Part shown: one piece after another, positions 42,489 to 46,434 of the stretch | How positions within the stretch are numbered: the stretch's first letter is position 1 | Layout: the number at the start of each line of letters is the position of its first letter | DNA from: Candidatus Nitrosopumilus sp. | Lineage (GTDB): Archaea; Thermoproteota; Nitrososphaeria; Nitrososphaerales; Nitrosopumilaceae | Length of the DNA stretch: 46,434 nucleotides | NCBI RefSeq assembly: GCF_029882185.1 | Contig: NZ_JAOULD010000010.1 | Span: forward strand, 1-46,434 | Direction: 5' to 3' | The notes under the pieces: generated by a model | Databases searched by the model: none | The model's input: only the letters and a program-made list of their open reading frames with translations | Told to the model about the DNA's origin: nothing | Made by a program: the position numbers and the translations under genes

Positions 42489-42560
42489 ATGTTGCTAGAG
42501 GAATTTTATGATGAGGATCTAGATGTCTCTAGTGACATTGGGCATTTTTTTAAATTTTGA
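42489..42560 (+). CDS. Possible 23-residue acidic microprotein
   Basis: An ATG frame of 23 codons (MLLEEFYDEDLDVSSDIGHF then FKF). Its start loosely resembles the 35-residue product at 43329 (MLFHDEELDEEEL). It may be a truncated copy, or chance. It overlaps the end of the convergent winged-helix gene by 11 bp. Confidence 0.2.
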   Translation: MLLEEFYDEDLDVSSDIGHFFKF

Positions 42561-43155
42561 GATGGCCTGCTTTTGGAATTTTACTGCTGAAATCTTTTTG
42601 CAGCAATATTCTCTCATTTGTTTTTCTGCCTTCAAGTAATCTCTGATTTGTTTCATCCATGAATTCATTGATTTGTTTGAAACAGTTTTTTAATTCTTTT
42701 TTTAATTCATCATCATCTGTATTCTCTATTGTCCATAGAATTGATGATGCCAATTCAAACATGTTGGTCATATTTGTCAGTAATGATTCATAATTTGTTT
42801 TTGTATTTTTGTTGAATTTACGAGCAGTAAGATCTTTGGATATGTCTGAAAATATTTTTTTGTTTTCGAAATTTTTCAATGAAGTCGTAATTCCAGATTC
42901 ATATGTGAAAATTAGATTGTTGATAAAACCCACATGTTCTTCAAGTGAATAGTGATAATGTTTAACATAATATGCATCATTTTTGTAACCATGTTTTTTG
43001 ATGTGTCCTAACTCTTCCATTTTTTTTAATATTTCTTTTAATTTACTCCTATTGAATCGTTTTTTGTTATTCAAACAGTTTGCCCAAATATCTCCAAAAT
43101 AGTTTTTTTCATCATTGATGCATTCTAAAATATAATTTATTGAAATCATCTGCAT
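42550..43155 (-). CDS. Winged-helix regulator-like protein with helical C-terminal domain
   Basis: A 201-residue protein. The N-terminal about 70 residues (LKEILKKMEELGHIKKHGYK then NDAYYVKHYHY) look like a winged helix with its wing; the rest is a helical bundle (SLLTNMTNMFELASSILWTI, KNCFKQINEFMDETNQRLLE) such as a sensing or dimerisation domain. Start could be the ATG at 43155 or two codons later. No family name. Target unknown; small genes flank it on both sides. Confidence 0.55.
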   Translation of the reverse strand: MQMISINYILECINDEKNYFGDIWANCLNNKKRFNRSKLKEILKKMEELGHIKKHGYKNDAYYVKHYHYSLEEHVGFINNLIFTYESGITTSLKNFENKKIFSDISKDLTARKFNKNTKTNYESLLTNMTNMFELASSILWTIENTDDDELKKELKNCFKQINEFMDETNQRLLEGRKTNERILLQKDFSSKIPKAGHLKI

Positions 43156-43595: not shown

Positions 43596-44756
43596 TTAAT
43601 TTTTACTTATTTTGATAAGTACTTTTTCGCCTTTGTTTGAATTGTTTTGATATACTGTTCTTGTCTTGTATCCTTGTTTTTGAAGACATCCGTCCAAAAT
43701 TGATACCCATGGCAATGAATGTCCGCTATTCAATCTTGATTCTAGGGATATGTTTTTGGTATTTGCCTCAAAATTAACATGACCTGAACATGTAATTTGC
43801 ATTACTGCATCTATGATCTCAATTATATCATCCAGCGTTTTTGATTTTAAAGAAATTCCATTCTTCTCTAATAGTTTTAACATGTCTAGATCTGTTTTTT
43901 TAGATATCATTGAAGAGTTTAGAATGTGCATTAATCCTGATTCATTAACTGTTTTGATGATTTTGTAAATCTCTTGTGCTTCTGTTTTTGTCATGTCTGC
44001 AAGAGCTTTGGTTTTAATTGCATTTTTCCAAATATCTGAAAATATCTTTTCTTGATTTATTCCTAAAATTTCTGTAGATGAAAAAATAGCTCCTTTTCCA
44101 TTATCGTTGTCAATCATCAGTAACTCTGTTTCATCAAAAATGAAACAGTTTTGTGTGATGTCTGATGCTCTAATTTCCACTCCGTCTGGAATGGTTCTAT
44201 ATGATTCAGAACAAATTTGTGATGGTGAAACAAGAATTTTGACATCCAAATTTCTCCTTAACACTGATAGCAACTGCTCTTTGCATTCCGCTAGTAATCC
44301 AAAACCCCATTGATCTGTCATAATTTTGATCGATGATTTCGAACCTTCAATCATCGTTTTGAGCTGAGACAAAACATTGTTGGCACTCATATGAAAATAT
44401 CTTCTTTCCTCTGACCCTCTTGACTTTCTGCTTTCCTCACTTGCTTTTTTCAAATCTGAAATTAGTGAATTCATTGCATTTACTTTGTTAATCTGTTCAT
44501 GAATTATCCCGTCAAAAGCATCCTCTGGGGCAATTGCAGTGCACATAATTGGTTTGCTTTTTGAAATGATGACTAGTTTTTTGTTTTCTAGTTTTAGCAA
44601 TGTTGGGTATGTTTTTGTTCTGGGAATTTCTGAATAATATGCTAATTCACTGGCAGAAATGGTTCCTTTTGCTATCAGGGTTACATATGCTTGTGCTTCA
44701 TACTTGCTTAATCCAAATTCTTCCAAACTAACTGTTAAAACGTGTTCATTTACCAT
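43596..44756 (-). CDS. TrmB-like transcriptional regulator
   Basis: A 386-residue protein with an N-terminal TrmB-type winged helix (FGLSKYEAQAYVTLIAKGTI then SASELAYYSEIPRTKTYPTL) and a PLD-like regulatory domain at about 120-255 (SIKIMTDQWGFGLLAECKEQ, DVKILVSPSQICSE, ENDNGK-type, GAIFSSTEILG). The last about 120 residues form an added domain. TrmB-type proteins respond to sugars or metabolites. It is divergent from the Cdv-like cluster, with a 159-bp shared regulatory gap, so it may control that cluster. Ligand not readable. Confidence 0.78.
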   Translation of the reverse strand: MVNEHVLTVSLEEFGLSKYEAQAYVTLIAKGTISASELAYYSEIPRTKTYPTLLKLENKKLVIISKSKPIMCTAIAPEDAFDGIIHEQINKVNAMNSLISDLKKASEESRKSRGSEERRYFHMSANNVLSQLKTMIEGSKSSIKIMTDQWGFGLLAECKEQLLSVLRRNLDVKILVSPSQICSESYRTIPDGVEIRASDITQNCFIFDETELLMIDNDNGKGAIFSSTEILGINQEKIFSDIWKNAIKTKALADMTKTEAQEIYKIIKTVNESGLMHILNSSMISKKTDLDMLKLLEKNGISLKSKTLDDIIEIIDAVMQITCSGHVNFEANTKNISLESRLNSGHSLPWVSILDGCLQKQGYKTRTVYQNNSNKGEKVLIKISKN

Positions 44757-44885
44757 GATTCTGTTTGATTTGTTATTAGGTAAAATTGAGAGCTAAATTC
44801 CTTTACACAAATACTCAAAAAAAATCAAAATTGTATCTGCAGACGGATGTAACTGTGGTTACTAAATAATTTGATACACTGTCCT

Positions 44886-44896
44886 AAAATATAAAA
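44886..44896 (+). promoter_or_regulatory. TATA box of the Cdv-like cluster
   Basis: AAAATATAAAA is centred about 25 nt ahead of the ATG at 44916, the classical distance for leaderless transcription, and is the reason for preferring that ATG over the GTG at 44904. Confidence 0.55.
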
Positions 44897-44915
44897 TCTA
44901 GAAGTGTTATTTGCT

Positions 44916-45479
44916 ATGTTGGTAAAATGCAGTATTAACCCCTTAGGTATTGAAAACATCTCTCATTCTGTAACTCTAGTTCCGAGATTGGAATATTCTA
45001 TGAGTCTATTGGATGAAATCATTGATGTTCTTAATTTCCGACAGTCTGAATTAAAAGAACAAAATAATAATTTAGCTCATGATTTTGACGAGTCAGATAG
45101 GACTCACGTTAATGCATTAAATCTTGAACATCTTGTGATGTATTCTCTTGAAATCTTACTCCAAGTAAGAAAGAGTATGAAAAAAATCTCTAACGTTGGA
45201 AGCATTCCTAAAGTTTTACCCTCATCAATCCCTATGATCAGGACCGTCAGTGCTCAATTGTTTGGCATTATTCCAAATTGTAGTAGAAAATTATCTGAAA
45301 TTTCAGTTCATTTAGGGAGTATTGTGCTTGATTCAGCAGCTCTTACTATGGCAAAGTTTGATTTTAGCCAATCAAACACTGAATCGACTTCCTTACTTAA
45401 TGAAGTAAAATTGATGGTCGGCTCTAAATTAAGTAAGCAGTATCCTAATCTTGATTTTTTCAAATTATTCAATACCTAA
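44916..45479 (+). CDS. CdvB/ESCRT-III-like protein
   Basis: A 187-residue helical protein with the ESCRT-III core pattern: LDEIIDVLNFRQSELKEQNN (helix 1), then NALNLEHLVMYSLEILLQVR and KKISNVGSIPKVLPSSIPMI, and AQLFGIIPNCSRKLSEISVHL then GSIV. This corresponds to helices alpha1-alpha4 of CdvB-type proteins, which polymerise at the division site. It is shorter than most main CdvB proteins and shows no clear C-terminal MIT-interacting motif. It begins a three-gene same-strand run with the 161-residue gene and cdvC, the ATPase that remodels ESCRT-III. Possibly one of several thaumarchaeal CdvB paralogues. Confidence 0.7.
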   Translation: MLVKCSINPLGIENISHSVTLVPRLEYSMSLLDEIIDVLNFRQSELKEQNNNLAHDFDESDRTHVNALNLEHLVMYSLEILLQVRKSMKKISNVGSIPKVLPSSIPMIRTVSAQLFGIIPNCSRKLSEISVHLGSIVLDSAALTMAKFDFSQSNTESTSLLNEVKLMVGSKLSKQYPNLDFFKLFNT

Positions 45480-45480
45480 T

Positions 45481-45966
45481 ATGTTAACCACAAAACGAGA
45501 TTTTTCAAAAGACATAGAACGTATAAGATCCATTTCCTCTAAAATCGACAAAAAATTATCTGAGGCAAAATCTTCTGATGATTTAAAAATTGATAAACTC
45601 TCTTTAGATGAATTACAGGATTTAGATAAAATCGTAAGAATTGCTGATTTTATGGTGTGTAAACATGAAGATAAAAAAGAAATGCGTTCAATTTTAAAGT
45701 ATTTTACCTCTATAATCACTGAGACTGCAAATTCCCTAAATGATTTGGATGATGAGGTATCTGAACTCATTCTCTCTGCTGAAGATTCTATAAACAAGGT
45801 CAAAGACATGCATTCTCATATCTCAGAAAAATCTGATTTTAAAAAAAAATATGATCATGGACCTGATTATAATGAATATGAAACAAGTGCAATTAATTTA
45901 ACCAATTTTGTTACAGAGATTCACACCGTAGGATACCAACAAAATTCTCAAAGAGATACTGCGTAG
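45481..45966 (+). CDS. Unknown protein in the Cdv cluster (161 residues)
   Basis: A 161-residue, helical, highly charged protein with heptad-like stretches (DIERIRSISSKIDKKLSEAK; ELILSAEDSINKVKDMHSHI). It begins at the ATG at 45481, 1 bp after the CdvB-like stop, and is followed 9 bp later by cdvC; an earlier in-frame start (45451) would overlap the preceding gene. The tail (YDHGPDYNEYETSAINLT) could be a short binding motif. No family recognised. Position between ESCRT-III-like and Vps4-like genes suggests a division adaptor. Confidence 0.65.
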   Translation: MLTTKRDFSKDIERIRSISSKIDKKLSEAKSSDDLKIDKLSLDELQDLDKIVRIADFMVCKHEDKKEMRSILKYFTSIITETANSLNDLDDEVSELILSAEDSINKVKDMHSHISEKSDFKKKYDHGPDYNEYETSAINLTNFVTEIHTVGYQQNSQRDTA

Positions 45967-45975
45967 GTAATTAGA

Positions 45976-46434
45976 ATGAGTTTAGCCCCCCAAGAATTAG
46001 AAAACACAGCAAGCAAATATGCTTCTGAAGCCATAAAATTTGATTCACAAGGTGCACGTGGAATGGCAATCACGCATTATCAGCACGCAATTGATGCTCT
46101 CGTAAAATTATTGCAACTATATCCTACCAGTAAATTAAATCAAATCTACAAAGAACGATGCAACTCTTATCATGGTAGAATTACCGCATTACAGCAGGCT
46201 CATGGTGTTGAACCCGCAGTAGATCCAAAAGCTTCTGAGGAGGATCAAAAGAAATCTGTTCAGAGACAAGAAAACGAAAATGATTTTGAAGAATTAATCA
46301 TGAAAGAAAAACCTGACGTTACTTGGGATCAGGTAATTGGTCTAGATGATGCAAAAAGCGCATTACGTGAATCAATTGTATATCCAACTAAACGACCTGA
46401 TCTTTTTCCACTTGGATGGCCAAAAGGAATGTTG
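45976..46434 (+). CDS. cdvC: CdvC (Vps4-like AAA ATPase), cut by window end
   Basis: The first 153 residues are inside the window. Residues about 1-75 form an MIT domain (ELENTASKYASEAIKFDSQG, ITHYQHAIDALVKLLQLYP), a charged linker follows (about 80-112), then the start of an AAA ATPase domain (VTWDQVIGLDDAKSALRESI, YPTKRPDLFPLGWPKGML), stopping just before the expected Walker A. CdvC binds ESCRT-III-like CdvB proteins through MIT and disassembles their filaments during cell division. Identification is firm despite truncation. Confidence 0.92.
   Translation, partial: MSLAPQELENTASKYASEAIKFDSQGARGMAITHYQHAIDALVKLLQLYPTSKLNQIYKERCNSYHGRITALQQAHGVEPAVDPKASEEDQKKSVQRQENENDFEELIMKEKPDVTWDQVIGLDDAKSALRESIVYPTKRPDLFPLGWPKGML

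Follow-up and report, generated by a model that had tools for sequence, protein, structure and literature searches.

The neighbourhood of cdvC is already partly described in Thaumarchaea. There, a coiled-coil gene, arCOG08707, lies directly upstream of cdvC/vps4; its product is a coiled-coil protein that contains a helical hairpin and is without similarity to known proteins (Makarova et al. 2024, PMC10936438). A figure legend in PMC8970359 records one CdvB gene linked to cdvC in three of four thaumarchaea, and a review (PMC5840170) reports that the fluorescence of two Nitrosopumilus maritimus CdvB paralogs tracks the CdvA–CdvC band.

Transcriptional control of a Cdv gene is described in the Sulfolobales, where aCcr1, a factor of the RHH family, controls cdvA (PMC12796447). 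Another group of archaeal regulators, the TrmB family, is reviewed in PMC4158304. Sugar genes are the main targets of the members it describes, which carry an HTH domain, bind close to promoters at sites such as TACTN3AGTA, TATCACN5GTGATA, and TACTN7-8GAGTA, and include cases of autoregulation; of the thaumarchaeal TrmBs, the review states that none is specified. In the open-access literature, we found no description of how thaumarchaea regulate Cdv division.

Here we analyse a thaumarchaeal cdvC cluster that is probably controlled at its front, by a TrmB-family regulator and a composite operator, and at its back, by a 64-bp DNA element. We put the probability of this reading at about 0.6. The cluster and its middle gene are already published and are not new. 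The first-pass annotation had called the linked cdv unit notable: the linkage is real and conserved, and its novelty does not stand, as the position beside cdvC is given in PMC10936438. The passages of that paper on arCOG08707 describe the same coiled-coil gene immediately 5' of cdvC/vps4 and mention no TrmB neighbour, operator, or intragenic element. The new part is the regulatory DNA: our searches of the open-access literature found no report of a TrmB–cdv link or of the 64-bp element.

Architecture of the cluster

The window, the whole stretch of 46,434 nucleotides that was analysed, corresponds to contig C51 in a draft genome of 1.66 Mb and 99% completeness. Its 3' end falls within cdvC, and the gene continues on contig C8, which overlaps C51 by 232 bp with one mismatch. 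After the cdvC remainder, C8 carries two long ORFs; at least one of them, of 970 aa, resembles on our reading the large subunit of a carbamoyl-phosphate synthase. As first proposed, the ESCRT-III-like, middle, and cdvC genes are three consecutive ORFs separated by 1 bp and 9 bp, and their coordinates are correct. The genes of the locus are as follows.

43596 to 44756, minus strand: divergent TrmB-family regulator, 386 aa (PF01978 HTH; a neighbour in both families that carry the cluster)
44916 to 45479, plus strand: ESCRT-III-like protein of the CdvB family, 187 aa (AF2 model, fold match, no MIM2 core)
45481 to 45966, plus strand: middle gene, a helical/coiled-coil protein of 161 aa counted from the ATG (profile search, AF2)
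45976 to 46434, plus strand: cdvC, a Vps4-type ATPase, N-terminal 153 aa, cut by the contig end (MIT and CdvC models; remainder at G000:C8)

The third ORF is a CdvC/Vps4 by its combination of an MIT domain and a Vps4-type AAA domain. The MIT domain (PF04212) matches at E 5.1e-9, above the Pfam cut-off, and the CdvC model NF041006 matches the N-terminal part at 1.9e-40; 20 of 20 genomes searched contain a strong match to the C8 part. The divergent gene belongs to the TrmB family, with PF01978 at 63.4 bits against a cut-off of 25.6 (E 1.7e-17). It does not qualify as a sugar-sensing TrmB: the effector-binding domain, PF11495, leaves no more than a weak trace, at 19.7 bits against a cut-off of 22.2 (E 0.00055). 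Downstream of the trmB-like gene, at 42550-43155 of the window, there is a 201-aa ORF without a convincing family match.

Gene order across relatives

We compared the family of the window (f1), which we take to be the Nitrosopumilaceae, with two further families of the same order, f2 and f3, of which f3 presumably resembles the Nitrososphaeraceae. The middle gene is present in 98 of 121 f1 genomes (E <= 0.001), so the cluster is not a chance arrangement; a profile search of the class recovers it in 165 of 300 genomes. Among the matches listed, middle genes beyond f1 are all in f3.

Gene order was read in 69 of the 98 f1 genomes with a middle gene. The full order, TrmB|ESCRT-middle-cdvC, is present in 57 of these 69 loci and in all eight f3 loci that have the middle gene. 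TrmB adjoins the cluster in 65 of the 69, and the middle gene adjoins cdvC in 67; the two exceptions are a contig edge (L059) and a locus with cdvC approximately 2.5 kb downstream (L077). The linkage first read from the window's letters, divergent TrmB-like regulator included, is thus a steady feature of the family.

The genes of the cluster are lost in a particular pattern. The ESCRT gene is lost or eroded with the middle gene retained at L048, L049, L050, L055, L058, L062, and L078, and remnants of it are visible at L048, L055, L058, and L062. No operonic ESCRT gene without a middle gene was seen among the f1 and f3 loci examined. G159 and two genomes of 0.8 Mb, G004 and G026, retain TrmB and cdvC alone. 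The ESCRT-III gene close to cdvC in G158, a genome of f2, is of the canonical cdvB type, and the gap between the two holds an unrelated 195-aa ORF that does not match the middle-gene profile.

An ESCRT-III protein without the MIM2 core

The first ORF encodes 187 aa from its ATG, or 191 aa from an alternative GTG start at 44904. It matches the NCBIfam CdvB1/B2 model at E 4.4e-9, under the model's curated cut-off, and CdvB2 of PDB 9s97 at E 7.9e-9; across the family, the CdvB1/B2 model matches 29 of 29 aligned members at E <= 1, with a best value of 1.5e-15. The predicted structure (AF2, pLDDT 86) has the ESCRT-III helical core, and the ESCRT-III assignment of the first-pass annotation is borne out by its match to CdvB2 and CdvB. 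The closest comparison is to CdvB2 9s98 (VIA Z 19.8, 166 aligned, rmsd 3.4); CdvB2 filaments score Z 18.5-19.8 and CdvB 18.1, and the next unrelated rows approximately 12. The fold is therefore like that of the Sulfolobales CdvB/CdvB2 ESCRT-III proteins (9s97-9s99, 9s9j), at Z 18-20 across 159-176 residues.

The C-terminus is different. We searched for the MIM2 core, hydrophobic-P-x-hydrophobic-P as given in PMC8970359, in a loosened form that adds Tyr and allows any residue at x. It is present in 28 of 28 canonical paralogs and in none of 58 operonic copies (L228 was excluded, and L231 yielded no protein). Where the canonical paralogs end in F/I-P-x-V/I/L-P, the window's protein reads YPNLDF. 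Lacking the core, unlike the Sulfolobales CdvB/CdvB2, the protein is filed as an ESCRT-III fold and not as a canonical CdvB. The N-terminal 75 residues were compared for the basic membrane-binding helix of ESCRT-III proteins; they are less basic on average, with a median net charge of -1 (-9 to 9) against +6 (1 to 10), and the two distributions overlap. A full-length ESCRT-III protein without the usual handle for CdvC is the protein-level oddity of the cluster.

The middle protein

For the middle protein, AF2 predicts two helices, a short one at 9-27 and a long one at 42-117 (pLDDT over 90 in the latter), and a tail that is disordered. Its adjacency to cdvC and its long helices make arCOG08707 the most likely identity. 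A fold search with the model returned generic long-helix matches only (best Z 7.3, 103 aligned, rmsd 4.8), and we therefore draw no conclusion on fold; set against the profile of ESCRT-III, that of the middle protein shows no match. In L076 (285-2927) and in L167 (genome G023), the core is followed by a tail of approximately 700 aa made of PAAEAPP tandem repeats.

A putative composite operator shared by two ESCRT-III promoters

The intergenic region between trmB and the ESCRT gene was aligned across 55 loci (L076, L079, and L080 excluded) and contains the following features.

44777 to 44839, no strand: conserved block on the trmB side, AGGTAAAATTGAGAGCTAAATTCCTTTACACAAATACTC... (alignment of trmB upstream regions)
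44849 to 44862, no strand: operator-like palindrome GTAACTGTGGTTAC, GTnAC-n4-GTnAC
44873 to 44877, no strand: third half-site of the composite operator, GATAC (GTGAC in many relatives), at the 24-bp offset found at the cdvB promoter
44886 to 44898, plus strand: putative TATA-like box AAAATATAAAATC of the ESCRT gene, conserved, 30 bp 5' of the ATG

The block nearest trmB is probably the promoter or leader of that gene. Of 58 loci, 45 carry the exact palindrome 5' of the ESCRT gene, against a shuffle expectation of 0.06, and in most of them it stands 65-68 bp from the start; the exact form is missing at the other 13 operon promoters. In f3, the same intergenic region has TGTnACCGCGGTnACA-like sites, and one genome of that family (G182) has a TGTnACn4GTnACA site there. 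At L046 (genome G013), the DNA 5' of the ESCRT gene carries a tandem GTGTCACTATGGTAT array, the units of which are like operator half-sites.

The same sequence marks a second division gene. A search of six genomes for TGTnACn4GTnACA led to another ESCRT-III gene, the distant canonical cdvB, with the site approximately 60 bp 5' of the gene on C80 and in its orthologs. Of the further sites in these genomes, several sit within what we read as transcription factor B genes, and others in or near genes that are unrelated. The operon and cdvB promoters have in common a third half-site at an equal offset. A scan of 26 genomes for the resulting composite, GTnAC-n4-GTnAC-n10-GTnACA, yields 26 matches, of which 15 stand at cdvB, 9 stand at the operon, and 2 are elsewhere (G069:C21:473728 and G119:C1:281600). 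A reversed-pattern control gave 6 matches in the same 26 genomes, and a 400-kb background sample contains no composite operator. In G158 (f2), no operator of this kind stands at the cdvC-adjacent cdvB.

The operator at cdvB and the regulator are absent together. Eighteen genomes were tested for a TrmB ortholog: 11 have one, at E below 1e-40, and the other seven (G019, G064, G052, G036, G107, G016, and G158) have weak paralogs only. The exact cdvB palindrome occurs in 9 of the 11 genomes with the ortholog and in 0 of the 7 without it (Fisher p 0.002, uncorrected for kinship), and the seven represent three lineages only, with five from one genus. In the comparison of cdvB promoters, L228 was misplaced by its short flank and was excluded. 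The genomes with TrmB and without an exact cdvB palindrome are G004 (one mismatch) and G010. In genus g19, the cdvB promoters at L242, L304, L305, L310, L311, and L314 have no GTnAC operator and carry instead a palindrome-like site, approximately TTGATCC-nnTTA-GATCAA; of these six genomes, the four searched lack the TrmB ortholog. These promoters suggest an operator switch.

A conserved DNA element before cdvC

The tail of the middle protein, SINLTN..T.INT.EYQQN, is conserved, and it occupies the position of a DNA element.

45886 to 45949, plus strand: 64-bp cdvC-linked DNA element within middle-gene codons 136-157 (alignments, codon test, matrix)

The DNA before cdvC, aligned in 77 loci, of which 39 picked for diversity form the gapless alignment A3, reads AGTnCAATTAATTTAACCAAATnT...GTTTACAC...GAATACC. 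Constraint is seen at the level of DNA. In 68 loci (L076, with its very long repeat tail, excluded), the synonymous-difference rate drops to 0.15 over codons 136-155, from 0.49 over the 134 other scored codons, and of 141 windows of twenty codons, the five with the lowest rates are all in this tail region. Where the middle gene stops early, the DNA past the stop codon is still similar among loci.

A matrix built from 27 in-frame copies recognises the element in two kinds of test locus: 6 of 6 where it is non-coding for the middle protein, the gene being truncated, missing, or at another place, and 6 of 6 where the middle gene stops inside it. All 12 test copies score above every one of the 797,480 background positions of a 400-kb sample, and the element ends 19-26 bp before the cdvC start. 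The matrix also recovers L049 and L153, neither used in training; at L152, L154, L164, and L078, the element was sought and not recovered. A sequence model of the element was run on nine f1 genomes, and in each of them a single position, the one at cdvC, matches strongly (E of at most 1e-13; next-best match 0.004); three of the nine (G000, G030, and G019) had supplied a training copy.

Outside f1, the sequence model gives best matches of 0.36 and 0.25 in the f3 and f2 genomes, away from cdvC, and the f1 matrix places only 3 of 8 f3 loci above all background. The homology of the f3 element consequently rests on position and two arms: the f3 copies have GGTGnAAA...TTTACACC-like arms, with the same 34-bp offset in those read for it, and the element begins at or past the middle-gene stop codon in 8 of 8 loci.

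The element persists in genomes without TrmB (L149, L150, and L155), and for this reason we assign it to another factor: it is most likely the promoter or operator of cdvC for a protein other than TrmB. Both this element and the operator common to the two ESCRT-III promoters were missing from the first-pass annotation. We dropped the idea of a common 'TTTACACC box' for cdvC and the two remaining cdvB paralogs. Promoters of these paralogs do not stand out with the cdvC matrix: in the median, fractions of 0.25 and 0.11 of the background promoters reach an equal score. A different motif, AC(A/T)C-n3-7-ATTAA, is found in 30 of 37 promoters of the same two paralogs (L324-L363) against 6 of 363 background promoters, and is possibly a second division-gene box.

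Alternative explanations

The conserved tail could be a real peptide motif, such as a ligand of the CdvC MIT domain, in an ordinary single-promoter operon, with DNA conservation as a secondary effect. MIT domains are known to bind short linear motifs, and most genomes keep the tail in frame. Against this stand third codon positions that are nearly frozen across the tail, the same DNA kept free of indels where it is non-coding or interrupted by a stop, its place outside the middle gene in all eight f3 loci, and L155, in which the element stays at cdvC with the middle gene approximately 2.5 kb off. We disfavour this explanation and regard it as very improbable. The element might otherwise act as RNA, in the 5' leader of cdvC, given how near to the start codon it ends and that some f3 copies have GGTGTAAA/TTTACACC arms capable of pairing. 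RNAalifold, however, finds 0 pairs in 39 element sequences, and an Rfam search returns no credible family; we set the RNA reading aside as improbable. A DNA site for a factor acting on cdvC is the interpretation that we retain.

At the front of the cluster, the question is which protein binds the composite operator. It could be some protein different from the TrmB-like neighbour: the composite differs in sequence from the TrmB sites published in PMC4158304, and most genomes searched contain TrmB-family paralogs. Two observations make this unlikely, namely that the operator sits in TrmB's own divergent promoter and that it is gone at cdvB in the three lineages that lost this TrmB. Binding by the neighbouring TrmB-like protein is, from these sequence comparisons, the most likely reading; the regulator has an HTH domain like the described members of the family, and would then also act at promoter-near sites as they do. 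For the middle protein, kinship to PspAA, the partner beside bacterial PspA, was considered on the basis of a Pfam match at E 0.0011 in the window. This match (PF22743) has 19.6 bits, under the curated cut-off of 27, and only 5 of 37 middle-gene members match PspAA at E <= 1, level with unrelated coiled-coil families. The kinship finds no support across the family and is hardly credible; a cofactor on the CdvC side is the most likely role of the middle protein.

A model for control of the cluster

We propose that the cluster combines three parts: a CdvB-like ESCRT-III protein minus the MIM2 core, a putative arCOG08707 coiled-coil cofactor, and the Vps4-type ATPase CdvC. At the front, the divergent TrmB would bind the composite operator in the shared intergenic region, regulating itself and controlling the ESCRT gene. 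It would also bind the same operator before the distant canonical cdvB. As one operator stands at both ESCRT-III genes, both are proposed to respond to one signal, and TrmB may couple a metabolite or nutrient signal to their expression. Such an arrangement would resemble aCcr1 control of cdvA in placing a transcription factor on a division gene, and would differ in the family of the factor.

At the back, cdvC would have separate regulatory DNA in the 64-bp element. In f1, the middle gene appears to have grown over this element, and the stretch would therefore serve as both code and control. The middle protein would most likely act with CdvC, stabilising or directing it; the first-pass annotation had suggested a possible division adaptor or regulator of CdvC. 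The MIM2-less ESCRT-III protein would need the middle protein and not vice versa, a dependence suggested by the loss pattern only. In its most specific form, the model holds that a dedicated TrmB-family division regulator coordinates two ESCRT-III genes and that cdvC is timed independently, by a TrmB-independent switch in the coding sequence of the middle gene; we give this form slightly less than an even chance.

Implications

Annotators should take conservation in the tail of the middle protein as a sign of constraint on the DNA. Co-regulation would explain why CdvB-paralog fluorescence tracks the CdvA–CdvC band. The shared operator, beside its likely regulator, and the cdvC-specific element provide concrete candidate DNA sites in Nitrosopumilus. 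If the model is true, assembly of the division polymer is uncoupled from production of the ATPase that disassembles it. Two conserved control regions, one of them hidden in the middle gene, suggest how ammonia-oxidising archaea may turn their division machinery on and off.
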